A DNA stretch of 64,000 nucleotides from Zestosphaera sp. (GTDB lineage: Archaea > Thermoproteota > Thermoprotei_A > Sulfolobales > NBVN01): positions 159,924 to 223,923 of the forward strand of contig JAVYVJ010000001.1 in assembly GCA_038727705.1 (NCBI GenBank). Direction: 5' to 3'. The notes under the pieces were generated by a model. That model saw only the letters and a program-made list of their open reading frames with translations. It did not search any database and had not been told where the DNA came from. Numbering within the stretch: position 1 is the first letter of the stretch; each line of letters opens with the position of its first letter. The position numbers were made by a program, and so were the translations under genes. Below are positions 5,541 to 59,608 of the stretch, one piece after another.

Positions 5541-7530
5541 AAAGATAGTTGGCGTTGATATCGTAAGATCAGGTGGGGATCTATCTCAGTTTGCCTATGC
5601 TCTAGTGGTTGTTGAGGGGGGCTCCCTCAAGACCGTGAAGGAAGTTAGTTTCGGGGGGTTGATAAGGGAGCTCTGGGAGTTAAGGCCTTCAGTTCTCGCG
5701 ACTGACAACGTCCTTGAGTTAGGGGGTAATAGGAGGAACCTCGTTAAGCTGCTCAGGCTGTTGCCTCCGGAGATAAGCGTGGTTCAGGTGAACGTTGAGT
5801 CTGGAAGGGCTCTTGACCTGCAGACCATGGCTGAGGAGGTAGGGCTTGCTGGCAGTAAGGGTAAGTTGGATCCCTTCAAGACCGCCCTTGTCATTGCCTA
5901 CCTCGCTAAGGAGGGGTACGGCACCAGGGTGAACGTCTTCGAGAATAAGGTTAAGATTTACGTCTACCCAGGGCGTTCAGGCGTCGCGGGCGGTTCCAGA
6001 ACTGAGAAGTTTATGAGGAACCTGCATGGGATTGTCGCAAGGCATGTGAAGAAGGTTAAGGAGGCTCTGGAGGGTGCTGGGATAGACTACGACCTCCTTG
6101 TCAGGAGGAGTAGGGGCGGCGTTGAGAGAGCTGTCTTCGTAGCCTACACGTCCCGGGAGAGGCTGTACGGAGTCGTCAGGCAGGCGAGAGGTAAGGACGT
6201 GGTCGTTAAAATTAGGCCCGTGCTTAGTAAGAGCTTTCTAAGTGATCTACTCAGGGAATCTAGAGGGGACGAGGAGAAGCGCTATCTAATCGTAGGCTAC
6301 GACCCCGGAATGAGTGTAGGGCTAGCGGTCCTGGATCTAGACATGACTCCGATCTACATCACGTCGGGCCGGGAGCTAGACAGGGGTGAGATCTCCAGCG
6401 TTCTCATCAAGCTCGGGCACCCTGCGGTCATCGCAACCGACAAGAACCCGCCGCCCGAGATGTGCAGGAAGCTGGCGGCCTCTTTAGGCGCCATGCTGTA
6501 CGTCCCCGAAAGATCTCTGAACACCGCGGAGAAGGAGGTGATGGTCGCCGAGTTCACGGCATTGCATCCCTCACTGTCCGTGAGGAACGCTCACGAGAGA
6601 GACGCTCTGGCCGCCGCTCTTAAGGCGTACAGCGAGTTTCAGGGGAAGATGGAGAAACTGTCGCGTAAGCTGAGGGAGATGGGTCTCTATGAGGTCGATC
6701 TGCAGAGGTACAGGGCTAAGGTGTTGCTTAATGAGACCCTATCAACGATAGTTGAGGAGATAATAAACGAGTACGTTAAGGGGGAGGGCAGGAAGGAGTT
6801 GCCCGTCCCCAGGCAACCCACACCCCCTCAGATCAGTAAAGTTGAGGAGGCCCTAAGGGAGAAGGTAAGTGAGTTGGAGAGGGAGAAGGAGCTCTACAGG
6901 CAGAGGGTTCTTGAGCTTGAGGGGGTGGTGCGTGAGTTAACCTCGCGGTTGGAGGCTGTGACGTCCGACATCAGTGAGAGGGTTCTCAGGGATAGGAAGG
7001 TTGGCGAACTCGCTCAACGGGTCAGGAGTCTCGAGTCCTATGTGAGGGTTCTGGAGGGCGAGAATTCATCCACTAAATCTAGACTAGTTAATTACGAGAA
7101 CGCCATCCTCAAGCTCTACGTAGGTACGCACGTGTTGATCCCTGTCTACAACCATAGATGCCTTAAATTGGTGAGGTCTGAGGAGGCCAGGACCCCGGTA
7201 GTCTTCACCTACGACGTCACGGAGGCTGTGAGGGAGGTTGGGAAGCTGGTTGACAGCGGTAGCATGGCCTTCGTGCTTCCGCCTAAAGCGGTGGATCTAA
7301 GCAGGCATTTGATTGAGGAGCGTTTGATACCGGCAGTAGCTTCGGAGGACGTGGTGGAGGTCAACGAGTGCCTTGTGGCGGTCGACAAAAACTCCGTCAT
7401 CAGGGCCGCCGCATTAGCTCCTCAGCTGGCTGAGGAGAGGAGGAAGAAGCTCCACGGTCTCACCTACGAGGACCTCAGCAATCTGCTCGAGGACTACAGA
7501 AGGGACAGAAGCTTAAAACCTGCTGACTGA
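5530..7530 (+). CDS. DUF460 protein (RNase H-fold plus coiled coil)
   Basis: This 666-residue protein belongs to the archaeal DUF460/COG2433 family, described as predicted RuvC/YqgF-like (RNase H-fold) proteins. The RNase H-like core is visible at about residue 255 (VGYDPGMSVGLAVLDLD), with further acidic positions in ATDKNPPP and NAHERDALAAA that would be expected to bind metal. A charged coiled coil follows at about 435-535. The biochemical role is unknown. The start overlaps the end of rio2 by 11 bases, so the two genes are probably cotranslated; a link with ribosome or RNA processing is inferred only from that context. Confidence 0.85.
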   Translation: MGSEKIVGVDIVRSGGDLSQFAYALVVVEGGSLKTVKEVSFGGLIRELWELRPSVLATDNVLELGGNRRNLVKLLRLLPPEISVVQVNVESGRALDLQTMAEEVGLAGSKGKLDPFKTALVIAYLAKEGYGTRVNVFENKVKIYVYPGRSGVAGGSRTEKFMRNLHGIVARHVKKVKEALEGAGIDYDLLVRRSRGGVERAVFVAYTSRERLYGVVRQARGKDVVVKIRPVLSKSFLSDLLRESRGDEEKRYLIVGYDPGMSVGLAVLDLDMTPIYITSGRELDRGEISSVLIKLGHPAVIATDKNPPPEMCRKLAASLGAMLYVPERSLNTAEKEVMVAEFTALHPSLSVRNAHERDALAAALKAYSEFQGKMEKLSRKLREMGLYEVDLQRYRAKVLLNETLSTIVEEIINEYVKGEGRKELPVPRQPTPPQISKVEEALREKVSELEREKELYRQRVLELEGVVRELTSRLEAVTSDISERVLRDRKVGELAQRVRSLESYVRVLEGENSSTKSRLVNYENAILKLYVGTHVLIPVYNHRCLKLVRSEEARTPVVFTYDVTEAVREVGKLVDSGSMAFVLPPKAVDLSRHLIEERLIPAVASEDVVEVNECLVAVDKNSVIRAAALAPQLAEERRKKLHGLTYEDLSNLLEDYRRDRSLKPAD

Positions 7531-7561
7531 AGTCTCTCCAGGAAGGTCCTGAGGTGCGGGG

Positions 7562-7882
7562 ATGAGGAAGGTCCTTGCCTTCAGGAGGGAGTATGGGAGG
7601 AGCATACTGCTTGGTAAGAAGACCACTACGGTCAGGCTCCGCTCCAACCTAAGGGAGGGTGAGGTCGTCGATGTCAAGGTTGGCGACGTGCATGTGGGGA
7701 GAGCATACATCGAGAACGTCGTAACCAAGAGGGTTCGCGAGCTGAGCGATGCAGATGCTCTGAACGACGGCTTCAGAAGCAAGGAGGACCTGATTCTAGA
7801 GCTTAAGAAGATCTACGGCGGGGGTAGGATAACGGACGACACGGAGGTCAAGGTAATTAGATTCCGGCTTCTGGGTTTATGA
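7562..7882 (+). CDS. ASCH-domain (PUA-like) protein
   Basis: This is a small 106-residue protein with the ASCH fold, a PUA-like beta-barrel expected to bind RNA. The N-terminal signature is visible: LAFRREYGRSILLGKKTTTV near residue 5, followed by a strand REGEVVDVKVGD. It sits 31 bases downstream of the DUF460 gene on the same strand and ends convergently with the pilin gene. The ATG at 7562 follows a purine-rich GCGGGG. The function is predicted only; a role in translation or RNA metabolism is inferred from the domain and from neighbouring RNA-related genes. Confidence 0.8.
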   Translation: MRKVLAFRREYGRSILLGKKTTTVRLRSNLREGEVVDVKVGDVHVGRAYIENVVTKRVRELSDADALNDGFRSKEDLILELKKIYGGGRITDDTEVKVIRFRLLGL

Positions 7883-7917
7883 CGGGGACCCAGGTCATTT
7901 TATCAGCTGTCGTGGGG

Positions 7918-8382
7918 TTAGCTCGGCGTTGTGGATTTCGCCACTTTAACCATGGTGGTGTATACATTGCCAGCCTGCGTGTAGACGTTGACCTGGTAGG
8001 TCACCTCGATTGGGCATGCCCCTGTGTAGGGGGCCCTCACAACCAGCGTGCCGGACTCTCCCTTGCTAACCGTCACTGTATTGCCGTTAACTTGCTGTCC
8101 GTTGTATTCATACAGGCTCGCGGCCCCGAGATTTGGGATGTAGGCTTTATTTACCACCGCGTCTGCCGTACCTTTGTTGTTCACGGTCAATCTTACTGAA
8201 AGCACCCCCTGTGTTGTGATGCATTCAGCCTCAGTGCCCGTAACCGTTAAACTCTCTGAAGGTCCTCCCGTAGACCCCCATATCCCTATCACCCATCCCA
8301 CCACGATTACTCCCAGGATCAGGGTTGTGGCGATTAGGACGACCGTGGCTAAGATGTCCGATTCAGCCCTCCCACACCTCAA
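7918..8382 (-). CDS. Type IV pilin-like protein (class III signal peptide)
   Basis: The 154-residue protein has the layout of an archaeal type IV pilin: a six-residue basic leader MRCGRA, then ESDILATVVLIATTLILG as the start of a hydrophobic helix of about 26 residues, then a beta-rich extracellular domain. Cleavage by a prepilin peptidase before Glu7 is inferred. The helix and the following segment GGPSESLTV closely resemble the pilin at 26368-26790 (APSESLSV), and both end with a similar VYTxAGNVY strand, so the two are paralogs. It has no pilus-assembly gene beside it. The start appears to be TTG, since no in-frame ATG fits the leader. Confidence 0.82.
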   Translation of the reverse strand: MRCGRAESDILATVVLIATTLILGVIVVGWVIGIWGSTGGPSESLTVTGTEAECITTQGVLSVRLTVNNKGTADAVVNKAYIPNLGAASLYEYNGQQVNGNTVTVSKGESGTLVVRAPYTGACPIEVTYQVNVYTQAGNVYTTMVKVAKSTTPS

Positions 8383-8789
8383 CTACAACGCCCAATTTAT
8401 TATATACCTGAAAGTTATTAATATACCTTAAATAAGAAAATGAAACCCAATTTTGGAGTGTTAAACTCCTGGAGAAGTTGTTCAACCTTATCTGGTGATC
8501 ATATGATGAGTGATGGTTGACAACGTAATCACTGGCGAGTTAATACAGAACCGATGAATTCATGAACTTTGCTTTTAATTAACTTCAGTCTCCACTACTT
8601 GGGGTTGTTTTTTTAACTTAATTATCTTCGAATTCCTCTTCTTTAGGTCAGGGTGACCATGCCTCTGCCGGCACCCCCTGAGCGTAGGGGTGAGGTGTTA
8701 TGGGGTTCCGGTAGTTAGGCATGGGAGTTCCCGCACCCCCCGTACTAATTGTGCAGGGGTGTTGAGGTAGTAATTGAGATATTAGTAGG
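8383..8789. other. Gene-free intergenic stretch
   Basis: About 400 bases without a convincing protein gene lie between the pilin and the Hfq-like gene. The first ~60 bases are very AT-rich and hold the pilin promoter (minus strand). The middle holds an ATGATGA at 8503-8509 but no matching D boxes. The right part holds the structured element at 8647-8758, with an AT-rich TTTTTTTAACTTAATT at about 8608-8623 that could be its promoter. Confidence 0.6.
8647..8758 (+). ncRNA. Candidate structured RNA (two to three stem-loops)
   Basis: Three inverted repeats follow one another: GGTCA/TGACC at 8646-8658; a long hairpin with CCATGCCT (8657-8664) pairing AGGCATGG (8717-8724) and an inner stem of 8668-8677 with 8702-8711 (nine pairs, one mismatch); and CCCGCAC (8730-8736) pairing GTGCAGGG (8751-8758) with one bulged base. 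A TATA-like stretch lies about 25-35 bases before 8645. The strand is uncertain because hairpins look alike on both strands. It does not resemble SRP RNA, RNase P RNA, a tRNA or a C/D RNA. It could also be the 3' region of the minus-strand Hfq-like gene. Confidence 0.4.
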
Positions 8790-9209
8790 TTACTCAGCCC
8801 CTTTCTGCTCTCCTCTGATGATAGCGTAAGCTATCGAGGACTTAGGTATTATGACGCCTTTATCCCCGCTCTTGACGCCTAACTCGTATTTGGATATCTT
8901 AGCTAACGTGCCTGAGATCGCGGAGCCGTCTATGAGATGTAGCTCCAGCTCCACTCCTATCAGGTCTATGCCGAGCACCGTATCATCTAATTGTTCTGAG
9001 CTGAAGCCGTGGAGGTCTGAGGCCTCCACTGTGGCGTTCAGGATTGCGTGTCTGAAGAGCACGTACGCTGCATCACCGACCCTCAGCCCTATCTCGTACC
9101 TGGACACCTCATCTATCACCCCTCTGATTGAGTCTTGAGCGCCGAGAACTCTGAACTCCACTTCCCTGCCGTTAAATCTCGCGTCAATTATGTTCTCCCT
9201 GAGCGGCAT
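8790..9209 (-). CDS. Tandem Hfq/Sm-like protein
   Basis: The 139-residue protein appears to hold two Sm-like domains, about residues 8-62 and 78-132. Each has the pattern of beta strands ending in a conserved turn: IRGVIDEVSRYEIGL then VLFRHAILNA in the first, ISGTLAKISKYELGV then VIIPKSSIAYAI in the second. The first copy's FRHAI recalls the Sm2 motif YKHAI of bacterial Hfq, an RNA chaperone; archaeal Sm/Hfq proteins form rings that bind U-rich or A-rich RNA. A duplicated single-chain form is inferred from the internal similarity. A TATA box (CTTAAAAACC, 9240-9249) precedes it. Confidence 0.65.
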   Translation of the reverse strand: MPLRENIIDARFNGREVEFRVLGAQDSIRGVIDEVSRYEIGLRVGDAAYVLFRHAILNATVEASDLHGFSSEQLDDTVLGIDLIGVELELHLIDGSAISGTLAKISKYELGVKSGDKGVIIPKSSIAYAIIRGEQKGAE

Positions 9210-9272
9210 TCAAACACCTTGCATTTATTCTTACGAAGGTTTTTAAGTGCGTAGCCCTTGCCGTGTGTAGCA

Positions 9273-10697
9273 CTACCTAAGGAGGTACGGGTGCGCCTTC
9301 ATCGTGAAGGCGGTCAGCCATCGCATGAACTCTTCGTTTGCCTTAAGGCGCTCCGGGAGGCTTTCACAGCCCCTAATTACTTCTATGAGCACCAAGTCCT
9401 TAGTTGACAGGTCACGAGGCCCCGCCTCACGCAGGAGTTCCTCCGGATCTCTGTACCTCCTCCTTACCAGCGCTTTAGGGAGTCCGTCCCCAGCTATCCA
9501 GACGGCAGACGTCCTGCTGGAGGTGCTGTGCTTCTCCATGAAGTCGTGGAATCCGCTTCGTAGGGTTGGCGGTCCTACCCTGACCTCGTAGGCCGGCAGC
9601 CCTCCCCCGTAGGATATGTCTAGAGCTATGAACGCCTGCGCGGCCTCATCGCTCCAGCAGTCATAGTCTATGATTTCAAACCTGTATGTCCTCAGGAGGT
9701 TGGCGGCCCTCCTGCTCAGCTTCTTGAGCTCCCCCCACAGGACGTCGGGGGGCACGCCCTTGGGGAGGGAGTACTTCAGCAACAGCACGCTCCTACCTGT
9801 CTCCTCAAGGAACTTCGTCAGCTCGGCGGGCTGCGCCGGCCTCAGCTCCCAGTGGAACAGGGCCTTGGACGGCTTCCTCATGAAGGAATACGCACTCGCT
9901 ACAGCCACTTTCAACGTTCTCTCAGACACCGCTGAGGCGGCGTTCCTTCTCGGGTCAACGGGGTCAAGCACTATCAGGGCGTCGTCTCTGAAGGCCTTCC
10001 TGACCGCGTTGATCGACCCGTACTCGCGTAGCACGTTGTCTTCCACCACGATCACCTCCCCTTCACGCCACCCGCTCATCGCCTCAACCGCCCTCAGGAA
10101 CGTCCTATACTTGACTACCATGAGTTCCGTCAAGTACCCTGAGAAGCCCTCGACCCTCACCTCCGCCCCGTAGATGCCCATGTTCTTCATGAACTTCTTC
10201 AGCAGTCTGACCTCATCCCTCATCCCCTCGTCGAGTCTGGAGTTGATGTATCTGGTGTGGAAGGGGGTTCTGTCGACTGCTGTAGTTATCTCGCTGACCT
10301 CCCTCGCCCAGTATGCGGGGACCACGTCGACCTCGAAGTCCTGGATTCGCAGAGTTATGTAGGGGTGTGAGGCGTACTTAACGCGTGCATCGTACCTGCT
10401 CAGACCGCCTTCCAGCAGCCGCTTTATGACCTCCTCCTCAATCCACTCATTGCTTAAGCCCTCCCTACTCAGCAGTATGAAGACGTCCAGGTCTATGTCG
10501 CCTCTGAGGGAGGTTCCCTTGGCGAAGGAGCCCTCCAGCGTGACTTTAAAGTCGCAGTCCACACGCAGTGTGGACTCTATGACCTCCCTAACCTCCTCGA
10601 AGAGTCTGAGGCCTGCTGCGACCTCCTCCTCCGTCGGCCTCAGCTCCTCCCTAACCTCCTCAAGCAGTTTAAGGAGTTCCTCACTCAACTCAACCAT
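9273..10697 (-). CDS. cca: CCA-adding enzyme (archaeal class I tRNA nucleotidyltransferase)
   Basis: This enzyme adds or repairs the 3' CCA end of tRNAs without a nucleic acid template. The 474-residue length fits the archaeal class I family. The nucleotidyltransferase signature GSFAKGTSLRGDIDLDVF covers residues 56-73, with metal-binding Asp67 and Asp69; a third acidic strand (EVDVVPAYW) follows near 118. A tail domain follows. Its start overlaps the end of thpR by eight bases, so thpR-cca form an operon; this pairing recurs in archaea. The tRNA-Pro nearby encodes its own CCA, which makes repair the likely role for that tRNA. Confidence 0.95.
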   Translation of the reverse strand: MVELSEELLKLLEEVREELRPTEEEVAAGLRLFEEVREVIESTLRVDCDFKVTLEGSFAKGTSLRGDIDLDVFILLSREGLSNEWIEEEVIKRLLEGGLSRYDARVKYASHPYITLRIQDFEVDVVPAYWAREVSEITTAVDRTPFHTRYINSRLDEGMRDEVRLLKKFMKNMGIYGAEVRVEGFSGYLTELMVVKYRTFLRAVEAMSGWREGEVIVVEDNVLREYGSINAVRKAFRDDALIVLDPVDPRRNAASAVSERTLKVAVASAYSFMRKPSKALFHWELRPAQPAELTKFLEETGRSVLLLKYSLPKGVPPDVLWGELKKLSRRAANLLRTYRFEIIDYDCWSDEAAQAFIALDISYGGGLPAYEVRVGPPTLRSGFHDFMEKHSTSSRTSAVWIAGDGLPKALVRRRYRDPEELLREAGPRDLSTKDLVLIEVIRGCESLPERLKANEEFMRWLTAFTMKAHPYLLR

Positions 10698-45624: not shown

Positions 45625-46326
45625 TTAAGGAGTCACGTCAAGCGACTCCATTATTGACTTGATGATCTTCCTTTCAGCCTTCCTCAAGTGCTCAATGAAG
45701 GTCGAGCGTGATATTCCCAAATACTTGGAGACCTCGCGTGAGTCCTGGTACCTAGGCCAGTTGAAGTACCCTAGCTGAAACGCGGTGATGAGGGACTTAA
45801 GCTCCATGTAGGAGAGTTTAGACACCATGTCCTGAGCTGTTGTGAAGGTCTTGTATGGATCGACCTCATTAACTATGGCATCATCGACCCTGAGCCAGAC
45901 CTCGGTGTCAGTGGGGGCGTTCTCCTTGATAGCCGTGAGTAATTGCTTGAGGTTCCTGCTGAAAGTCACCACCGGGTAGTACCTCACCCCGTTCTTAATC
46001 ACTATAGGTCCGTTCAGGACTGAGTCAGTTAGGCACAGAGCCTTCAGAGTCCCCATCTGTCTCCTCGTTACTATGAGCCTGGCTTGGTTAGCCCTCCTCT
46101 CAATTATCCTGTAGTTTAGGACGTATGGGTCCCTGTCAAGTGTCCTGAAGAAGTGCCTCAAATCATCGCTTGAGCCCCCCTTAAACTCTGCCAGGTAGTA
46201 GACCGAAGTACCTATCAGGGTGGCGAAAGGCACTATGATGAATGACCTCCTATGTTCCTTCGTGAACTCGTGCAGTGGTTCATCCTTGTGAACTATGCTT
46301 AAGGTACCCCGTATCTTACCCCTCAT
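45625..46326 (-). CDS. Bat-type (HTH_10) transcription regulator
   Basis: The 233-residue protein has a C-terminal helix-turn-helix of the bacterio-opsin-activator type (about 170-230): LSYMELKSLITAFQLGYFNW, then SREVSKYLGISRSTFIEHLR and AERKIIKSIM. The first ~160 residues form an alpha/beta domain of unknown ligand specificity. Regulators of this family control metabolic or stress genes in archaea. It is divergent from the M20 peptidase gene, and the intergenic region holds an 18-base inverted repeat that could be its operator. Confidence 0.8.
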   Translation of the reverse strand: MRGKIRGTLSIVHKDEPLHEFTKEHRRSFIIVPFATLIGTSVYYLAEFKGGSSDDLRHFFRTLDRDPYVLNYRIIERRANQARLIVTRRQMGTLKALCLTDSVLNGPIVIKNGVRYYPVVTFSRNLKQLLTAIKENAPTDTEVWLRVDDAIVNEVDPYKTFTTAQDMVSKLSYMELKSLITAFQLGYFNWPRYQDSREVSKYLGISRSTFIEHLRKAERKIIKSIMESLDVTP

Positions 46327-46475: not shown

Positions 46476-47807
46476 TTGGGTGATCCTGCACTGGATCTAT
46501 TGGCTTCACTGGTGAGCATAAACACTACGAACGACCCCGCTAGAGGGGTGAGGCCCGGCAGGGATGCGGTGGATTTGGTTAAGGACGTGCTGACTGGTTG
46601 GGGTGTTGAGGCTAATGTGTTGGAAAGCGGTGGGTACTACTCAGTGTACGGTAGCGTCGGTGAGGGAGAGCCTTCAGTCATGTTTATGGCTCACCTAGAC
46701 GTAGTGCCCGTGAAGGTCGATGAGTGGACTCACGAACCCTTCAAACTCACTGTGGTCGGGGACAAGGCCTTCGGGAGAGGCACTGTGGATGACAAAGGCA
46801 ACGTTGTGGGGGTGATGCTGGCTCTCAAGGAGTTGATGAGGCGCAAGCTCAAAGGAAGGGTTCTATATGCCTTCACAACAGACGAGGAGGTAGGGGGTGT
46901 CCACGGCGCTAAGGCACTGGCTGAAAAGCTAGCCAAAGAAAACTCACTACCAAAATACCTAATCAACGGGGACGGTTTGGGAATGTCTCCTATAGTCAGG
47001 AGGAGGAAGATCTTCAAAGCAATTCTGGAGGCTCCTCAGGGGAAGGTGCTTATAGCAGGCACTCTCAGGAGGAGGAGCTTCGAGCTGAGGACTCCGGTGG
47101 TTCCGACGAGACACTCCGCGTGGTTCGTGCCGGGGGTCGACACGCACCCGCTCATCGCGGCCTCGTACTTCATGCTAAGCAACCCGGAGTTTCAGGCCGC
47201 CCGCGTCGACGGCGTCTTCGTCAAGACAAACGTGTTGCCAACTACGGTCTCCATCGAGTACGTTGAGCCTTCCGGCGGTGGCGAGAAGGTAGAGGTCGAT
47301 GAGGGGCTCACCGCGCTACTGCGCCTGCTCATGCCTTTAAGCAGAGCCGCCGTGCCGGTGCGGCTCTACAGCGATAACGGCGTCTCCATAACCCCTAACA
47401 TGTACAGCTTCCGCGACGGCAAGCATGTGGTCGAGGTTGATATAAGGGCTATGACCGAGGATGTCAACGTCATTAAGGAGGCGCTAGTCCGCACGGCGTC
47501 GGAGATAGCGCCTGAAGTCAGGGTGGACGTGGTTGATGAGGGTGGTGGGTATCTCTACGTCCCGCCAACTGACGGGCTCGTCCAGTCAGCGGTCAGAGTT
47601 CTCAACAATCTAGGTCTTAACGCCTACACGATAGAGGCTCCGGGAGCCTCGGACTCAAGGCACTTCACACCGCTAGGGGTTAAGTGCATTGACTTCGGGC
47701 CTAAGGGAGGTAATAATCACGGTCCTGACGAATGGGTTGACCTGAACACGTTCAGACTCCTTCACAAATTCTATGCGAACATAGCTCTGGAGCTCATTGG
47801 GAGGTGA
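46476..47807 (+). CDS. M20 family metallopeptidase (dipeptidase/ArgE-like)
   Basis: The 443-residue enzyme is a zinc peptidase of the M20/ArgE-DapE family that acts on peptides or N-acylated amino acids. Metal and catalytic motifs visible are MAHLDVVPV (residue ~72), RGTVDDKGNV (~105) and TDEEVGGVHG (~137), with a C-terminal His-containing motif (NNHGPDEW). An extra segment of about 30 residues (~180-210) lies between domains, as in some archaeal members. The start is a TTG preceded by an AT-rich GGTTTAAC. The membrane protein and the ferredoxin oxidoreductase genes follow at short distance (5 and 14 bases), so they probably form one operon. Confidence 0.87.
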   Translation: MGDPALDLLASLVSINTTNDPARGVRPGRDAVDLVKDVLTGWGVEANVLESGGYYSVYGSVGEGEPSVMFMAHLDVVPVKVDEWTHEPFKLTVVGDKAFGRGTVDDKGNVVGVMLALKELMRRKLKGRVLYAFTTDEEVGGVHGAKALAEKLAKENSLPKYLINGDGLGMSPIVRRRKIFKAILEAPQGKVLIAGTLRRRSFELRTPVVPTRHSAWFVPGVDTHPLIAASYFMLSNPEFQAARVDGVFVKTNVLPTTVSIEYVEPSGGGEKVEVDEGLTALLRLLMPLSRAAVPVRLYSDNGVSITPNMYSFRDGKHVVEVDIRAMTEDVNVIKEALVRTASEIAPEVRVDVVDEGGGYLYVPPTDGLVQSAVRVLNNLGLNAYTIEAPGASDSRHFTPLGVKCIDFGPKGGNNHGPDEWVDLNTFRLLHKFYANIALELIGR

Positions 47808-47812
47808 TGTAG

Positions 47813-49003
47813 GTGGCCATATCCATTGAGAACGCGGCTTTCTGGATTGCGGTGTTGCTGGCTCTCTTCGCAGTAGGGGATATAGCGGCTGCAGTGACTA
47901 AGGCTAAACTCTCTTCAGTGTTTGTCGCACTTATGCTGGCGTTGATAGGATTCCTCACTGGAGTGCTCCCACCCAACTTCATAGATAGGGCCGGCCTCAC
48001 CGCCTTAGCTACCTATGCAGCAGCTTTCCTCATATTCCACATGGGGACCCTCATAGAGATACGTCAATTCATAGAGCAGTGGAGGACGGTGGTTGCGGCG
48101 GTGATCTCCATGATCGCCGTGGCGGTCGTCCTAGGTGGTGTAGGGTATGTTCTGATAGGGAAGCCGGAGACTGTGGTCAGCATACCCATAATTAACGGCG
48201 GGATAATAGCAACCCAGATAATGGTCAACGGGGCGTCGGCGAAGGGCTATGCCCTAGCAGCCGCGTTGGGCACTTTAGTGTATGCAGTGCAGAAGTTCGT
48301 TGGCACTCCAATCGCGTCATACTTTGGGGTTAGGGAGGCTAGGAAGATAGTTAAGCTATATAGGGAGGGGCAGATCAAGATACAGAAGAGTGAGTCGGCT
48401 GAGAGGAAGTATCCGGGGTACCACGTAATCGACTGTAAGAGGTATCAGAGGTACTTAACGGACTTCGTGTTGCTGGCGATCACGGCGTTCTTCGCGTGGC
48501 TCTCAATGTTCCTGGACTCGCTCACAGGCCTGAACTACTCGATATGGGCTCTGATTCTGGGGGTTGCCGTCAGCTACGTCGGCCTTGTGCCGAACAAGAT
48601 CCTCGACCTGGCCAAGGGCTCCGGGTGGTTCATGGTCATAGTGTTCGCATCTATAATACCCTCCCTAGCTAAGATTAAAGCGGGTGATCTCTTGATACTC
48701 GCGTACCAGCTGGTGGTGGTGTTCGCGGCATCTCTACTCGGTGTGTTCGTCTTCATGTACCTCCTGCCTGCATGGAGGCTCGTAGGCTCTAGGAACTTGG
48801 CCGTCGGGATAGGTGTTGCTCAGATGCTGGGGTTCCCGGCAACGTACTTAGTGGCTAACGAGGTGGCTAACGCGGTCGGTGAGACTAAGGAGGAGAGGGA
48901 GGCGATACTCCAGGCTCTCATGCCGGCCTACGTAATAGCGGGCTTCGCAACCGTGACCACCATCTCGATAATTATAGCAGGACTGTTCGTGGGCCTGCTG
49001 TGA
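47813..49003 (+). CDS. Multi-spanning membrane protein (transporter-like, GltS-type layout)
   Basis: The 396-residue protein has about ten transmembrane segments in two halves, a cytoplasmic insert of about 45 residues after the fifth or sixth (IVKLYREGQIKIQKSESAERKYPG), and repeated GG/NGG turns (IINGGIIATQ). The layout recalls sodium/glutamate or 2-oxoacid symporters, but no family motif was matched, so the substrate is unknown. It lies five bases after the peptidase gene and 14 bases before the gamma-delta gene, which suggests uptake or export of an organic acid or amino acid. The start is GTG. Confidence 0.65.
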   Translation: MAISIENAAFWIAVLLALFAVGDIAAAVTKAKLSSVFVALMLALIGFLTGVLPPNFIDRAGLTALATYAAAFLIFHMGTLIEIRQFIEQWRTVVAAVISMIAVAVVLGGVGYVLIGKPETVVSIPIINGGIIATQIMVNGASAKGYALAAALGTLVYAVQKFVGTPIASYFGVREARKIVKLYREGQIKIQKSESAERKYPGYHVIDCKRYQRYLTDFVLLAITAFFAWLSMFLDSLTGLNYSIWALILGVAVSYVGLVPNKILDLAKGSGWFMVIVFASIIPSLAKIKAGDLLILAYQLVVVFAASLLGVFVFMYLLPAWRLVGSRNLAVGIGVAQMLGFPATYLVANEVANAVGETKEEREAILQALMPAYVIAGFATVTTISIIIAGLFVGLL

Positions 49004-49017
49004 AGGGGTGATTCTTT

Positions 49018-50142
49018 TTGACTGAGGAACGCAAATCAAGCCTCAACGTCCTGGAGGACCTTTTTTGGGTCGTGATTCACGGCAGGGGTGTGTGGCACAC
49101 CGGATCATCAACAACCCTTGCCAGAGTCCTGGCTATGGCCGGCGTGGTCGCCGGGCGTGAGTCCTACTACTACATGAGGTACGATGACTCCCCGGAGCGG
49201 GTTAACATACCGATGATGTTCTACGTCGTCATGGGCAATCCCAGGGTTGAGGTCCTCCTGCCGGAGGAGGTAGAACCTGTTGGAAGGCTCTTCAACGCTG
49301 TGGTGGTCATGGACTCGGTCTCACTGCTTAAGGAGACGTCTCAGAGAGCAACGCTGTTCGACGGGATTAAGGATGACGCGGTCTTCGTAGTCAACACAGG
49401 GCTTACCCCGTCGCAGGTGCTTGCACTGCTCAAGAAGTATCAGTTGACACGCGACTGGTTCGGCAAGCTCGTCACGGTCAGCGCAAGCAAGTACCACACG
49501 AACGTGGCGTTCGGCCTGATCGGCGCTCTGCTGAAGGCGTGGAACGTGGTGGGTTTGGAGGATGTGCTGAATGCGCTAGAAGCGCTGAAGATAGATGAGG
49601 GTGCCGGGGAGGCAATCGCCTCAGCATATAAGGACGCCTCAGTCACTGAGGTGAGGGTCCGCGCTGAAGAGTCCGAAGCGGCTGGGAGAGTGAGCGTTAA
49701 AACACCTGAATTCAGGCCAGGGCCTTGGAGCATTGAAACCTACAGGGAGTATCAGAGAGCACTTTCGCAGGCTAGGAGCTATGAGGACAGGATCAGGGTA
49801 ATGCCTAGGTGGGAGGCCATGGCCCCAGGACTGATAGAGTTCGGCCCGCATCCCGGCGGGAGGAACATAGGGTTTAAGACGGAGTTCGCCAGGATCGAGG
49901 CGCCTGTGATAGATAAGGCTAAATGTGTGGACTGCAAACTCTGCACGTACTTCTGCCCTGACGGCTCCATAGACTTCGAGAGCGTTGAGGTGGACTACGA
50001 GTACTGCAAGGGCTGCGGTATCTGCGCTCGTGTGTGCCCCGCCAAAGCCATCAGGATGGTGAGCGAGTTGGAGAGGGTTGAGGGTTTGGAGGATCCTGAA
50101 CTCAGGAGGCTGGCTCTGGTCACTAGAGAGTATGGCTACTGA
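49018..50142 (+). CDS. 2-oxoacid:ferredoxin oxidoreductase, fused gamma-delta subunit
   Basis: The 374-residue protein joins a gamma domain (about 1-215) to a delta domain (about 225-365). The delta part carries two ferredoxin-type 4Fe-4S motifs, CVDCKLCTYFC and CKGCGICARVC, which pass electrons to ferredoxin. The gamma part has GRGVWHTGSS in place of the common GRGGQGA, so it is divergent. A fused gamma-delta polypeptide and the order gamma-delta, alpha, beta match, from memory, the Moorella oxalate oxidoreductase. The start is TTG at 49018. Alpha follows after 20 bases. Confidence 0.85.
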   Translation: MTEERKSSLNVLEDLFWVVIHGRGVWHTGSSTTLARVLAMAGVVAGRESYYYMRYDDSPERVNIPMMFYVVMGNPRVEVLLPEEVEPVGRLFNAVVVMDSVSLLKETSQRATLFDGIKDDAVFVVNTGLTPSQVLALLKKYQLTRDWFGKLVTVSASKYHTNVAFGLIGALLKAWNVVGLEDVLNALEALKIDEGAGEAIASAYKDASVTEVRVRAEESEAAGRVSVKTPEFRPGPWSIETYREYQRALSQARSYEDRIRVMPRWEAMAPGLIEFGPHPGGRNIGFKTEFARIEAPVIDKAKCVDCKLCTYFCPDGSIDFESVEVDYEYCKGCGICARVCPAKAIRMVSELERVEGLEDPELRRLALVTREYGY

Positions 50143-50162: not shown

Positions 50163-51401
50163 GTGAAGGCACTTACAAGAACTGACTTGGAGGCGGTTCA
50201 AATACCTAGGAGGAGACCTATAACTGGCGCTAGAGCCATAGCCGAGGCGGTTAAGATAGCTGACGTGGACGTGATAGCGGCCTACCCAATAAGGCCGTAC
50301 ACGGGCGTCATGAACGCGCTCGCTGAGATGATAGCTAACGGTGAGTTCACGGCGGAGATCATAGTAGCTGACTCAGAACACTCGCAGTTCGAGATAGTGA
50401 AGCACGCCTCAGCCGCTGGTGCCAGGACCTTCGTCGGCAGTTCGGGGGTTGGGCTCATCTACGCTGCCGAGGCTATAGTAGTCACCGCGATGGATCAACT
50501 GCCTGTAGTGGCGATCGCCGGTTGCAGGGCGCTCGACGATCCTGGGAACTTCGGGATGGAGTGGAACGACACACTATTCTTCAGGGACTCAGGATGGCTT
50601 ATCTCGTGGGCTAAGGACCCGCAGGAGGCGCTTGACATGACTTTAGTGGCGTACCGGGTTGCTGAGGATCGTAGGGTCATGCTACCGCACTTCATAGCGG
50701 TTGATGGTGCCACCATAACTCACATAGCCGCGCCCGTTGATACGCCCTCCAAAAAGGACGTGGCCGAGTTCCTGCCTCCTTACAGACCCCACTACACGCT
50801 GGACCCGGCTCAAGGCCCTGTAACCAAAGCGCAGCACATAGCGCCTTCACTGATAGGTCCTGAGCAGAGAAAGCATGTGGACGTAGCTATGAAAAGATCT
50901 AGGGAAGTAATTGCTGAGGCGTGGAGGGATTACGCCAACTACGTCGGGAGGACCTATGACCCGTTTATTGAGACGTTCCGCATGGATGACGCTGAGATAG
51001 CCTTGGTGACTATGGGTGCCTACACTATTAACGCATTACACGCCGTCAATGAGGTTAGGAGGGACGGGATTAAAGCAGGTGTTGTGCGATTAAGGTATTT
51101 CAGACCGTTACCGGCCTGGGATCTTAAGAAGGTCTTAAGCGGTGTTGAGGGAATCGGCGTTCTGGACTTCTCCTACTCGTTCGGCTCTCCAGACAGTGCG
51201 GGGGTCCTCTTCAATGAGGTGAGGGCCGCGACGTACGACGATCCCAAGCCAGCGCTGGACTTCCTCTTCCTAGGGGGTAGGGAACCTAAACCTGCTGACT
51301 TCGTTAAGGCTCTGAAGATACTGCACGATTACGTGAGAACGGGGGACACGCCAGGAGGTAAGCGTGTCTTCTGGCTGACGCTGAGGGGTGAGGACATATG
51401 A
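50163..51401 (+). CDS. 2-oxoacid:ferredoxin oxidoreductase alpha subunit (oxalate-oxidoreductase-like)
   Basis: The 412-residue alpha subunit holds the TPP-pyrimidine domain. The motif at residues 41-45 is YPIRP, with Arg44 where pyruvate enzymes have Thr (YPITP). Further on are Arg122, Asp125 and Phe130 in CRALDDPGNF. Recalled active-site residues of Moorella oxalate oxidoreductase, Arg31, Arg109, Asp112 and Phe117, have exactly the same spacing (78, 3 and 5). This suggests an oxalate or similar dicarboxylate-type 2-oxo substrate; the pairing is based on memory and needs alignment. It overlaps beta by four bases. GTG start. Confidence 0.8.
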   Translation: MKALTRTDLEAVQIPRRRPITGARAIAEAVKIADVDVIAAYPIRPYTGVMNALAEMIANGEFTAEIIVADSEHSQFEIVKHASAAGARTFVGSSGVGLIYAAEAIVVTAMDQLPVVAIAGCRALDDPGNFGMEWNDTLFFRDSGWLISWAKDPQEALDMTLVAYRVAEDRRVMLPHFIAVDGATITHIAAPVDTPSKKDVAEFLPPYRPHYTLDPAQGPVTKAQHIAPSLIGPEQRKHVDVAMKRSREVIAEAWRDYANYVGRTYDPFIETFRMDDAEIALVTMGAYTINALHAVNEVRRDGIKAGVVRLRYFRPLPAWDLKKVLSGVEGIGVLDFSYSFGSPDSAGVLFNEVRAATYDDPKPALDFLFLGGREPKPADFVKALKILHDYVRTGDTPGGKRVFWLTLRGEDI

Positions 51402-52387
51402 GCAGTGAGCGCAGGCAGTTCAAGTCGGTCAAGGAGATTCCGCCGGAAGACTACTACACGTCTGGTAGGAGGACGTGTGCTGGATGCGGCCCTGCGCTGG
51501 CATATAGACTAGTCCTCAAGGCCGCCGGCGTCAACACGGTGGTCCTAGGTCCGACGGGCTGTATGTACGTAGCTAATGCCCATCAGTTCTTGACATCACC
51601 TTACGCGGTACCTTGGTTCCACACCCAACTCGGCGGCGGCGGTGCCGCGGGCGCAGGGACTGCCGCAGCGTTCAGGGCGCTCATGAAGAAGGGTAAGAGG
51701 AGGCTAGAGGACGTTAACGTGGTGGTGTTCGGGGGCGACGGAGGGTTCGCCGACATAGGGTTCGCCGGGCTCTCTATGGGCATGAGCTACGACTACCCTA
51801 GGCTCCTCTACGTACTTTACGACAACGAGTCATACGCCAACACGGGGATACAGGCTTCGAGCACAACCCCCTGGGGGGCGACGACCACCTTCACCCCGTC
51901 GGGGAAGGTTAGGAGGATAGGGAATGAGAGGATGAAGAAGAACGTTGCTCTAATCATGGCTACACATCCAGGGGTTAGATATGTGGCTACAGCCACTCTG
52001 TGGCCTCCGCTAGACCTCATGAATAAGGTGGACAAGGCGCTTGGAAGCGGTGGTCCATCATTCATACACGTCTTAGTGCCCTGCCCTAAGGGATGGTTCA
52101 CGCCGCCCGACCTGACGGTCGAGCTGTCCAGACTCGCTGTGGAGACAGGGCTCTGGGTCTTGTGGGAGTATGAGAACGGCAGGTTCAGGCTGACGTACAA
52201 ACCATCGCCGAGGAAACACGTAAAGAATTACATGCAACTGCAGGGGAGGTTCGCACACCTATCCGCCAGCGAGATAGATATGATTGAAGAAGTGACTGGG
52301 AGGGAGTGGGAGATTTGGGCGGAGATGGATAGGACCGGCAAGTTGATAGTGCCTTGGGTCCCTCCACTAAAAAGTGTTGAGGGTTGA
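51398..52387 (+). CDS. 2-oxoacid:ferredoxin oxidoreductase beta subunit
   Basis: The 329-residue beta subunit binds TPP and the proximal 4Fe-4S cluster. Cys27 and Cys30 (CAGC), Cys55 (GPTGC) and a further Cys in VPCPKGW are the likely cluster ligands. The TPP motif GDGG is at about residues 113-116 and the matching YDNESYANTG is at 141-150, so Asn143 aligns with the residue known from this family. With the fused gamma-delta and alpha subunits it makes the complete enzyme. The ATG at 51398 overlaps the alpha stop. The gene ends the plus-strand operon and meets the riboflavin kinase gene convergently. Confidence 0.92.
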   Translation: MSSERRQFKSVKEIPPEDYYTSGRRTCAGCGPALAYRLVLKAAGVNTVVLGPTGCMYVANAHQFLTSPYAVPWFHTQLGGGGAAGAGTAAAFRALMKKGKRRLEDVNVVVFGGDGGFADIGFAGLSMGMSYDYPRLLYVLYDNESYANTGIQASSTTPWGATTTFTPSGKVRRIGNERMKKNVALIMATHPGVRYVATATLWPPLDLMNKVDKALGSGGPSFIHVLVPCPKGWFTPPDLTVELSRLAVETGLWVLWEYENGRFRLTYKPSPRKHVKNYMQLQGRFAHLSASEIDMIEEVTGREWEIWAEMDRTGKLIVPWVPPLKSVEG

Positions 52388-55502: not shown

Positions 55503-57506
55503 GTGAGACGCTGGGGTCTCAGGCTTAAACTGTATTGGTGTAGGAACTGCAACATTCCGTTGAGGGAGCCTACGTGCGGTAAGTGCGGTGGTTCAGGCGA
55601 TGAGCTGCGTGTCGGGGAGCCCGGCGACATGCGCCCTGGATTCTCCGGTGACTTGAGGATGGTTGCGGAGGGGATTACCAACGAGTTTGGCGACTCCACG
55701 TTGGTCAGGTTGTTGGGTCTTGACTCAGGCCTCTTCTTCTTGAATAAGGTCCCGCACGTTGATGACATGCGTGAGGTCATCGTCGGCGGCGTGGTTGTCG
55801 GAAGACTTCATTTCGATCCCGGGTTGATGTGCTGGAGGTGGAGGTTGAGTAAGTATAGTGCGGGCCTGGCTGTCGAGGAGGGGCTGGTCAGGAGTTTTGT
55901 AGTCGAGAAGCCCAAACCCCTAGAACCTCTGGGTGAGGGAGGTAGGGAAGGCGAGCAGGCGGTGGTGACGGATGGGTCAGGAACCCCCAAGGCTCTAGCC
56001 ATAGTTAAGAAGGGTAGGTTTAGAGTGCAGACATTCTTCAGGGGAGGTCCCGAGGAACCTGTTAGGGTTAGGGCGGTCATGGAGGACGTGATTAAGGGGA
56101 ACGACCTGTGGGTGAGATCCCGAATATCTAAGGGGGTTAAGAGCGTCGCCGTCATGGTCGCTAAGACAGGACTTCCGGTGGTTGTCTCCTACTCAGGGGG
56201 TAAGGACTCCCTGGTGACGCTCCACCTGACGCTCGAGGCCGGCGTCGAGCCGGTGATGCTCTTCAACGACACCGGCCTGGAGCTCCCTGAGACTATCCAC
56301 AACGTTGAGGAGGTCAGCAGGGCCTACGGTCTGAGGTCCCTTGTTGCCGACGCTGATGGAAAGTTTTGGGATGCTGCCAACGTCTTCGGACCCCCGGGCA
56401 AGGACTATAGGTGGTGCTGTAAAGTCATTAAGTTAGTACCTATAGCTAGGGTATATCGGACCAACTTCCCAGGCGGCGTCTTATCAGTAGTGGGTCAGAG
56501 GGCCTTCGAGTCGGTCGACAGGTCCCTCTCAGGCAACGTCTGGAGGAACAGGTGGTTGCCGAGCGTGCTCTCGATGACCCCTATTCAGGAGTGGGATCAG
56601 ATAGCCTTGTGGTCGTACATACACGCTAAGAGACTGCCTGTAAATCCCCTATACTTCGAGGGGTTTGAGAGGCTTGGTTGCTACCTCTGCCCCGCAGCTA
56701 ATGTGGCTGAGTACCATGAGTTGCAGAGGAAGTACCCCGATATGTGGGGTAGGTGGGATTGCTTCCTGAGACGATGGTTCTCAGAGCGTGCGATGCCCGA
56801 GGAGTACGTGACGAAGCACCTGTGGAGGTGGCATGACCCCGGGGCTCAGGGGAGGAAGAGGGTGGAGCGTTGGGCGGGTTTGAGCAACCGTTCGTGGGTT
56901 TCGGAATATGTGCTTAGATCCGGGTTCGAGGCTACACTCACTGGGGGTTCCCAGACGGCCGAGGCCGTCTCCGTTAAGGTGACGCCTTCATTACCCCTCG
57001 AGGCCTACCTAAGTCAGTGGAGGGTCCTTGGATATAGGCATGAACACGCGGGGGAGTATGTTAGAATTAAGTCGTTCGCAGGGGTTACGGAGATCAGTGT
57101 TGATGGGGTCTTAAGCGCCTCCTCAAGCGAGGCCTTCGAGGAGGTGCTCACAGCCATTAAGGTGGGTGTTAGGTGGCTTAAGTGCGTGAGTTGCTTTAGC
57201 TGTGTTAACTGGTGTCCCCGAGGCGCTGTTGACGTCGTCGATGGGAGGCCAGAGGTCGACCCACTTAGGTGCACGGGTTGCAGAATATGCGTGAGTGTTT
57301 GCCCGGTAGCCGAGGTTTTCGTTGAGAAGAACATAGTGACCCAGCTAATCGGCAGGTCAAGGGGCAGAGGCAGGAAGGGTACATTAACTCAGGCGCTCTC
57401 ACTTCTCCTATCAAGGGGATCTGGGGGGCGTTGGTCAGGCAGACGCGTACAGCAAGAGCCGGAGCCCTCTCTAAACGGGTTGAGAGATTTTTTGAGCCGT
57501 CTCTAA
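55503..57506 (+). CDS. PAPS reductase-like Fe-S protein
   Basis: The 667-residue protein is an archaeal adenine-nucleotide alpha hydrolase-type (PAPS reductase-like) protein. An N-terminal CxxC zinc ribbon (CRNC, CGKC) is followed by a beta-rich PUA-like region, the PP-loop SYSGGKDSLVTLH (about residue 230), a Cys-rich region with CCK and CYLC, and a C-terminal ferredoxin domain with two 4Fe-4S motifs (CVSCFSCVNWC, CTGCRICVSVC; about 560-600). Such proteins are candidates for sulfur transfer or tRNA thiolation, not established. A basic tail ends the protein. The start is GTG at 55503. It is a single gene with its own promoter. Confidence 0.85.
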   Translation: MRRWGLRLKLYWCRNCNIPLREPTCGKCGGSGDELRVGEPGDMRPGFSGDLRMVAEGITNEFGDSTLVRLLGLDSGLFFLNKVPHVDDMREVIVGGVVVGRLHFDPGLMCWRWRLSKYSAGLAVEEGLVRSFVVEKPKPLEPLGEGGREGEQAVVTDGSGTPKALAIVKKGRFRVQTFFRGGPEEPVRVRAVMEDVIKGNDLWVRSRISKGVKSVAVMVAKTGLPVVVSYSGGKDSLVTLHLTLEAGVEPVMLFNDTGLELPETIHNVEEVSRAYGLRSLVADADGKFWDAANVFGPPGKDYRWCCKVIKLVPIARVYRTNFPGGVLSVVGQRAFESVDRSLSGNVWRNRWLPSVLSMTPIQEWDQIALWSYIHAKRLPVNPLYFEGFERLGCYLCPAANVAEYHELQRKYPDMWGRWDCFLRRWFSERAMPEEYVTKHLWRWHDPGAQGRKRVERWAGLSNRSWVSEYVLRSGFEATLTGGSQTAEAVSVKVTPSLPLEAYLSQWRVLGYRHEHAGEYVRIKSFAGVTEISVDGVLSASSSEAFEEVLTAIKVGVRWLKCVSCFSCVNWCPRGAVDVVDGRPEVDPLRCTGCRICVSVCPVAEVFVEKNIVTQLIGRSRGRGRKGTLTQALSLLLSRGSGGRWSGRRVQQEPEPSLNGLRDFLSRL

Positions 57507-58447: not shown

Positions 58448-59608
58448 ATGCGTTCCATGTCTGATGCTGAAGGAAGGTTCGAGCTTTATGAACGTGAACC
58501 GCCCACACCTCCTGAGGAGTATGTGAGGGTGGGGAGTGACATTCTTAAGGAATTCACTGAGAGACTCTTTGTTGCTTCCGGACTCCCTAGAGAGGACTCC
58601 AAGATCGTCGCTGATGTGCTGGTGACGGCCGATCTTATGGGCATCTCAAGCCATGGCGTTCAGAGGGTTGGGAGATATGTCAGCGGGTTGATGAAGTGTT
58701 GCGTTAACCCTAGGCCCAACATCAGGTTGCTTAGAGACAGCGGCGCTGTGGCCCTGGTGGACGCTGACAGAGGGTTAGGGCATCCCGTCGGCGTTAAGGC
58801 CATGGAGATAGCTGTTGAGAAGGCCAGGACTTTCGGCGTATCTCTAGTCTTAGTTCAGAACAGCCAGCATTACGGGATCGCCGGCTATTACGCCCTCAAG
58901 GCTGTGGAGAAGGGGTTGATAGGTGTCTCGATGACGAATTCTGAGAAGCTGGTTGCGTACGTCAACACGACCAGCAGGGTGTTAGGCACTAACCCAATAG
59001 CCGTGGGCATTCCTAGACCTAGGCCGCCCCCCATACTCTTTGACGCCGCAACAGCTGTAGTGCCTGTCGGCAAGATAGAGATCTACGCCAAGCTAGGTAA
59101 GGCTGTTCGTGAGGGGTGGGTTCTAGGCAGGGACGGGTCCCTGCTCAGCGGTGACGCTACCAGAGTCCTGAGCGAAATTAAGGGCGGTAGGGCCTCCATC
59201 CTGCCGTTAGGGGGTTTAGGGGAGGAGTTCGGAGGTCATAAGGGGTCGGGGTTAGCGTTCATAGTGGACATAATCGCCGGAGTGCTTTCAGGGGCTGCTT
59301 GGGGCATTCACGTCGGCTATACTGTGGGGGATAGACCCGCTAACGTGGGGCACGCTTTCGCGGCAATAAACATCGAATCTTTTATGTCGATGCAGGAGTT
59401 CTACTCCAGGCTGGAGAAATATGTTGAGGAGATAAAATCGCTTCCAAAGCACCCCAGTGCTGACAGAATATGGTTGCCGGGGGAGAAGGCCTGGCGCACG
59501 GTGCAGACTAGGCTCAAGATAGGTGTACCGATACATAAGAACGTGTGCAGGGAACTGAATCAAATAGCGTCGGAAGTGGGCGTGAGCGACAGGCTGGACT
59601 GTGACTAA
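58448..59608 (+). CDS. LDH2/malate dehydrogenase family NAD(P)-dependent dehydrogenase
   Basis: The 386-residue protein belongs to the LDH2/MDH2 family, which reduces or oxidises 2-hydroxyacids (malate, lactate, ureidoglycolate and others) with NAD(P). Family marks: ADLMGISSHGVQRVGRYV (residues ~64-81), the segment LVQNSQHYGIAGYYALKA, TNSEKLVAY, and GTNPIAVGIP near 182. The exact substrate cannot be told. The gene lies near the oxidoreductase cluster but is not part of it. A TATA box (GAAAATATATAGC, about 58411-58423) is about 30 bases before the ATG. Confidence 0.88.
   Translation: MRSMSDAEGRFELYEREPPTPPEEYVRVGSDILKEFTERLFVASGLPREDSKIVADVLVTADLMGISSHGVQRVGRYVSGLMKCCVNPRPNIRLLRDSGAVALVDADRGLGHPVGVKAMEIAVEKARTFGVSLVLVQNSQHYGIAGYYALKAVEKGLIGVSMTNSEKLVAYVNTTSRVLGTNPIAVGIPRPRPPPILFDAATAVVPVGKIEIYAKLGKAVREGWVLGRDGSLLSGDATRVLSEIKGGRASILPLGGLGEEFGGHKGSGLAFIVDIIAGVLSGAAWGIHVGYTVGDRPANVGHAFAAINIESFMSMQEFYSRLEKYVEEIKSLPKHPSADRIWLPGEKAWRTVQTRLKIGVPIHKNVCRELNQIASEVGVSDRLDCD

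Follow-up and report, generated by a model that had tools for sequence, protein, structure and literature searches.

To our knowledge, CoA-independent anaerobic oxidation of oxalate has been characterized only from Moorella, and the bacterial enzyme, oxalate oxidoreductase (OOR), enables some anaerobes to live on oxalate. In the Moorella enzyme (hereinafter MtOOR; structures 5c4i, 5exd, and 5exe), the YPIRP motif is unique among the 2-oxoacid:ferredoxin oxidoreductases (OFORs) compared, with the pyruvate enzymes carrying Thr in place of its Arg, and Arg31 together with Asp116 constitute the residues of its bait-and-switch mechanism (PMC5020499). StOFOR of Sulfolobus tokodaii (5b46–5b48), a distant superfamily member from archaea related to the one considered here, oxidizes pyruvate and 2-oxoglutarate, and mutation of YPITP residues in the Sulfolobus OFOR abolishes activity (PMC5020499). 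The literature that we searched contained no report of archaeal oxalate oxidation.

We analyzed a 64,000-nucleotide stretch of DNA (hereinafter the window) from the heat-loving archaeon Zestosphaera sp., in which genes for an M20 hydrolase, a membrane protein, and the gamma-delta, alpha, and beta subunits of an OFOR follow one another in a five-gene run, no more than about 20 bases apart; a divergent regulator gene lies upstream (Table 1). Judging from sequence, the three subunits probably constitute an archaeal variant of the CoA-independent oxalate:ferredoxin oxidoreductase, with oxalate as the likeliest substrate. The enzyme is OOR-like in all the residue and subunit features that we compared except the switch loop and the scores against curated family cut-offs.

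Table 1. Features of the window discussed in the text (positions are those of the window).
Feature	Coordinates	Strand	Remarks
HTH_10 (bacterio-opsin-activator type) regulator	45625..46326	-	Divergent, candidate local regulator; PF04967 64.9 bits
M20 family hydrolase	46476..47807	+	First in run; 443 aa; NF006326 585 bits (cut-off 354); PF01546
Membrane protein, unnamed family	47813..49003	+	Candidate solute importer; 396 aa; same gene run
Gamma-delta fusion subunit	49018..50142	+	374 aa, TTG start; gamma domain with HGRGVWHT replacing GRGGQG
Gamma-delta C-terminal ferredoxin domain	within 49018..50142	+	Eight Cys for two [4Fe-4S] clusters
Alpha subunit	50163..51401	+	412 aa, GTG start; TPP/substrate-binding domain I and domain II
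Arg44 codon (MtOOR Arg31), in YPIRP	50292..50294	+	From alignment with MtOOR alpha
Switch/plug loop Arg122-Phe130 (RALDDPGNF) codons	50526..50552	+	Arg109, Asp112, Pro113 to Asp126, Asp116 to Asn129, Phe117 (MtOOR numbering first)
Beta subunit	51398..52387	+	329 aa; 4-base overlap with alpha

An initial annotation of the alpha subunit had singled out Arg44 in YPIRP and Arg122, Asp125, and Phe130 in CRALDDPGNF as an OOR-like active site, and the residues, reading frame, and coordinates all hold. In a phmmer alignment with 5c4i_A (E-value 6e-97, 328.6 bits, 380 residues; alpha is 44% identical to MtOOR alpha), these four residues stand opposite MtOOR Arg31, Arg109, Asp112, and Phe117, with Arg44 falling squarely on Arg31; as they are homologously aligned, the shared intervals of 78, 3, and 5 residues that the annotation had pointed out reflect homology. 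A chance match of residues is ruled out by this alignment and by clade-wide fixation: all 19 archaeal and all 23 bacterial enzymes of the clade described below have the four equivalents. Arg occupies position 31 (MtOOR numbering) in all 42 of these, and Thr in each of 13 pyruvate/2-oxoisovalerate-type outgroup alphas, which bears out the annotation's statement on pyruvate enzymes and agrees with PMC5020499. Since Arg109 is likewise found in 13/13 outgroups, whereas Arg31, Asp112, and Phe117 each occur in 0/13, only the latter three are diagnostic.

Two further positions in the loop, overlooked in the initial annotation, separate the archaeal from the bacterial enzymes. All 23 bacterial members have Asp at position 116 and Pro at position 113, whereas all 19 archaeal members have Asn at 116 (Asn129 in the window) and Asp at 113 (Asp126), such that the loop reads RALDDPGNF in the window versus RTLDPPGDF in MtOOR. 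Asn at position 116 is also found in many pyruvate enzymes. Given that PMC5020499 names Arg31 and Asp116 as the mechanistic pair, the archaeal group retains the bait and alters the switch. The window alpha carries the Arg31 and Arg109/Asp112/Phe117 features of OORs with Asn129 in place of Asp116, and lacks the YPITP Thr for the pyruvate carboxylate that characterizes pyruvate:ferredoxin oxidoreductases (PORs). Its AlphaFold model has a mean pLDDT of 84.8, with loop 124–131 as the sole internal stretch below 50; this is compatible with a mobile loop but may also stem from a thin alignment.

Similarity searches with all three subunits lead to OOR. The next solved relative of alpha after MtOOR is the Methanosarcina POR (9bt4, 197.7 bits), and a Foldseek search with the alpha model ranks 5c4i first (TM 0.88/0.92). 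The beta subunit, which retains the TPP site (GGDGGFADIG/DNESYANTG) and the cluster cysteines (CAGCG, TGCM, PCPKGW), has MtOOR beta as its best solved match (335.5 bits, versus 223.3 for the Methanosarcina POR). The gamma-delta protein, which is longer than its MtOOR counterpart and about 25% identical to it, also has MtOOR as its best solved match, at 57.5 bits in a sequence search that covers chiefly the ferredoxin part; profile-profile comparisons spanning both domains linked it to the bacterial OOR gamma-delta (E-value 9e-31, 291 columns), to the f14 group introduced below (8e-37), and to a fused Methanoperedens protein (3.6e-26). At the superfamily level, the enzyme shows Pfam POR_N and PFOR_II matches. 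The NCBIfam OOR models are the top family for all three subunits, but the scores lie below the equivalog cut-offs (NF045790–NF045792; alpha 374.9/500, beta 372.8/590, and delta 90.6/230 bits), and we accordingly class the window enzyme with a sister group of the OORs and not as a certified member.

The complete subunit set is present, and the gene order of gamma-delta fusion, alpha, and beta is, as the annotation had stated, that of MtOOR, with which the window enzyme also shares YPIRP, the Arg109/Asp112/Phe117 set, and a gamma domain devoid of GRGGQG; the two differ at positions 113 and 116 and in their archaeal versus bacterial hosts. The GRGGQG motif of gamma has a putative role in CoA binding. 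It is found in most pyruvate-type loci checked; in its place the window enzyme has GRGVWH, the f14 enzymes GRGVTQ, and OOR ARGVVM. The three YPIRP groups share RGV and a Y-x-D-x-P-(D/E)-R-x-x-x-P signature where others have ERRGAPV. The CoA independence of the window enzyme is a prediction. The POR of Methanosarcina acetivorans (9bt4) and other archaeal PorABCD enzymes resemble the window enzyme in fold, TPP site, cluster ligands, and the Arg109 equivalent, but have the YPITP Thr, GRGGQG, Ser/Gly at position 112 and Ile at position 117, and encode gamma and delta in separate genes (34% identity). In StOFOR, Arg344 corresponds to MtOOR Arg109 and window Arg122; however, that enzyme has two subunits, with domain III fused to alpha, YPITP, and no intramolecular ferredoxin domain. 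Fusion of gamma and delta is itself ruled out as an OOR-only mark by Candidatus Methanoperedens (L013 and L014, positions 7102–10030), in which a fused gamma-delta is followed by alpha and beta as in the window, but the enzyme has YPITP, an unusual loop (RTLGGPPGI), and an intact GRGGQG, and falls outside the YPIRP clade.

Related alpha sequences were gathered from sampled GTDB genomes, through a DNA-level search for the pattern YPIRPYTG in about 1,150 genomes, and from 26 genomes within the same order. The pattern is rare: it occurs in 13/398 genomes of the window's phylum sample, 5/251 of the class of a Bathyarchaeota MAG (L009), and 1/243 around UBA287, as well as in 9/22 genomes of the Thermanaeromonas class and 19/249 of its phylum; the reversed pattern, used as a control, had 0 matches in all genomes. 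Three groups emerged: the bacterial OORs (Moorella/Thermanaeromonas); the window's group, with named records from Desulfurococcales, Sulfolobales, and Bathyarchaeota MAGs and one MAG labelled Euryarchaeota UBA287; and f14, a single family of the same phylum. Alpha trees computed without the motif columns unite all 23 bacterial and 19 archaeal YPIRP enzymes in one clade with 100/100 support, within which the two archaeal groups together are sister to the bacterial group (99/94–96); the branches leading to each group are long (0.6–0.9 changes per site). The beta tree also recovers a single YPIRP clade (100/100), with the archaeal pairing at just 88/79. Both trees join the window enzyme to MtOOR and contradict the possibility, raised in the initial annotation, of a place within a characterized pyruvate or 2-oxoisovalerate group; the two pyruvate-type alphas of the window's own genome (L002, L003) lie outside the YPIRP clade.

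The initial annotation had further noted that a transporter-like gene and a peptidase belong to the same run of genes. This stands, and an identical run, with the regulator in the same place, is found in a second locus (L007); as a pointer to oxalate, however, the pair is weak. The operon of a close relative (L006; 86% alpha identity) has no adjoining M20 or membrane protein gene, and the same is true of other clade members, on which account we dropped these neighbors as oxalate evidence. The membrane protein has zero Pfam, NCBIfam, or PDB matches, shows neither an MFS nor an OFA match of the kind expected of an OxlT-type oxalate transporter with Arg272 and Lys355, and occurs in 1/300 genomes of the phylum sample, namely the window's own; its AlphaFold model has a pLDDT of 38. 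Nor does the window's genome have an OFA-family (OxlT-type) gene scoring above the cut-off. The closest relative of the membrane protein is from Cetobacterium (50%), and its family (about 396 aa; plasmid loci L126–L130) is often encoded beside M20 hydrolases or amidohydrolases on plasmids of Rhodobacterales and Lactobacillales. As these transporter relatives adjoin M20 hydrolases also in bacteria that have no OOR, the transporter and peptidase are weak evidence for the substrate: the hydrolase probably pairs with the membrane protein and not necessarily with the oxidoreductase. The membrane protein may import a substrate or precursor, and by itself does not point to oxalate.

The genomic context of the relatives is stronger evidence for oxalate than that of the window. 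In a member of the window's group (L077; 66% alpha identity), an OFA-family transporter gene directly follows beta; its TIGR04259 score of 281 bits is below the cut-off of 335. The encoded protein keeps Arg272, Lys355, Gln34, Tyr35, and Tyr124 of OxlT (8hpj), of which Arg272 and Lys355 bind both oxalate carboxylates (PMC10070484); position 355 is Cys in the lactate transporter 6g9x. OxlT-type transporters lie near the operon in 9/22 bacterial OOR loci and in this one archaeal locus only. Likewise, the SDR gene (NAD-dependent epimerase-like) beside the Moorella OOR (L083:3385–4335, minus strand) has its best archaeal match directly beside an OOR-like operon in four genomes (G131:C2:282031–282936, G083:C6:568651–569553, G030:C2:55660–56562, and G139:C22:114734–115657), with E-values of 4e-52 to 9e-68 versus 3e-18 to 3e-22 for the next match, where one exists. 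Bacteria and archaea alike retain this SDR gene next to their OOR or OOR-like operons, and it outscores by far any other SDR of the same genome.

Nramp-like transporter genes also adjoin the operon in L079 (5312–6799), L070 (13772–15232), and other f14 loci, and are 52–59% identical between the groups. Metal-carrying Nramp proteins have the motifs DPGN and MPH, which are absent from the Nramp-like proteins of f14 and L079; going by these motifs, they are candidate carriers of non-metal solutes, perhaps including oxalate. Upstream of the OOR-like operon in L070 are tandem Pup-ligase/Dop-like genes (PF03136; 9597–11159 and 11217–12587, both on the minus strand), an arrangement shared by other f14 loci.

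By analogy with MtOOR, Arg44 and Arg122 would grip the two carboxylates of oxalate at the TPP of the alpha-beta active site. Oxalate would then join TPP and release the first CO2, and the TPP-bound carboxylate would be oxidized to the second, with the two electrons passing from the beta cluster to the pair of [4Fe-4S] clusters in the delta domain and on to ferredoxin, all without coenzyme A. The Arg122–Phe130 loop would open and close over the site as in MtOOR, with Asn129 in the place of Asp116 and Asp126 as an additional acid. The substrate would be taken up by neighboring transporters that differ between lineages, and the reduced ferredoxin could be used to form hydrogen or sulfide or to fix CO2.

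The altered loop also invites a different reading, which we consider unlikely, namely that the Arg pocket persists in the archaeal group but serves some other small dianionic or polar 2-oxoacid (e.g., mesoxalate, oxaloacetate, glyoxylate, or oxamate), with the Asp116-to-Asn and Pro113-to-Asp replacements marking the change of substrate. The fixed loop difference that splits archaeal from bacterial enzymes in 42/42 sequences, the long alpha branches, the scores below the curated cut-offs, and the neighbor genes that vary among lineages are in line with it; nevertheless, Arg31, Asp112, and Phe117 are all retained, one archaeal member is adjoined by an OxlT-type transporter in which both oxalate-contacting residues are kept, and the SDR neighbor is common to both sides of the split. 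That the enzyme is instead a conventional pyruvate or 2-oxoisovalerate:ferredoxin oxidoreductase whose pocket is unusual is very improbable: although it belongs to the same superfamily and matches POR_N and PFOR_II, two enzymes of that kind are already encoded in the genome and lie outside the strongly supported clade, and neither GRGGQG nor a position inside the POR clade is seen. Its YPITP-equivalent motif has the Thr-to-Arg change, YPITP mutants of the Sulfolobus OFOR being inactive (PMC5020499), and we rejected this identity on the trees and motifs together.

Returning to oxalate as the substrate, the five-gene run, its tight spacing, its conservation in L007, and the M20 hydrolases beside the transporter's bacterial relatives would suit an extension in which, within the window's genus, the whole run forms one pathway: an oxalyl amide (oxamate, oxalurate, or an N-oxalyl amino acid) would be imported, cleaved by the M20 hydrolase to oxalate, and oxidized. 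We regard this as rather improbable, as the operon lacks the M20 and transporter genes in all other clade members, including L006, and the hydrolase is a member of a broad archaeal “peptidase” family. On a wider scale, it is conceivable, if somewhat doubtful, that archaea (Sulfolobales/Desulfurococcales-type, Bathyarchaeia, and one more family of the phylum) hold an old OOR sister group with its own form of bait-and-switch, the acid of the loop being at position 113 and not 116, and that oxalate serves them as an anaerobic source of electrons and CO2, taken up by exchangeable, lineage-specific, and partly undescribed importers. If anaerobic oxalate oxidation has a second, archaeal branch, oxalate would be an electron donor in hot, anoxic settings. 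The fixed Asp-to-Asn replacement offers a natural experiment on bait-and-switch: activity on oxalate would make Asp116 dispensable, and inactivity would indicate a new substrate. Archaeal YPIRP genes are likely misnamed pyruvate synthase in genomes.

Elsewhere in the window, the gene at 58448–59608 (plus strand) codes for a dehydrogenase akin to sulfolactate, malate, and ureidoglycolate dehydrogenases, with every score far under the cut-off; we dropped this AllD/ureidoglycolate-like gene as an oxalate source because of those scores. A relative of it lies two genes away from the OOR-like operon in L011. The gene at 55503–57506 (plus strand) codes for a 667-aa protein that, by eye, seems to join a PAPS-reductase-type domain to a Cys-rich, ferredoxin-like C-terminal part.
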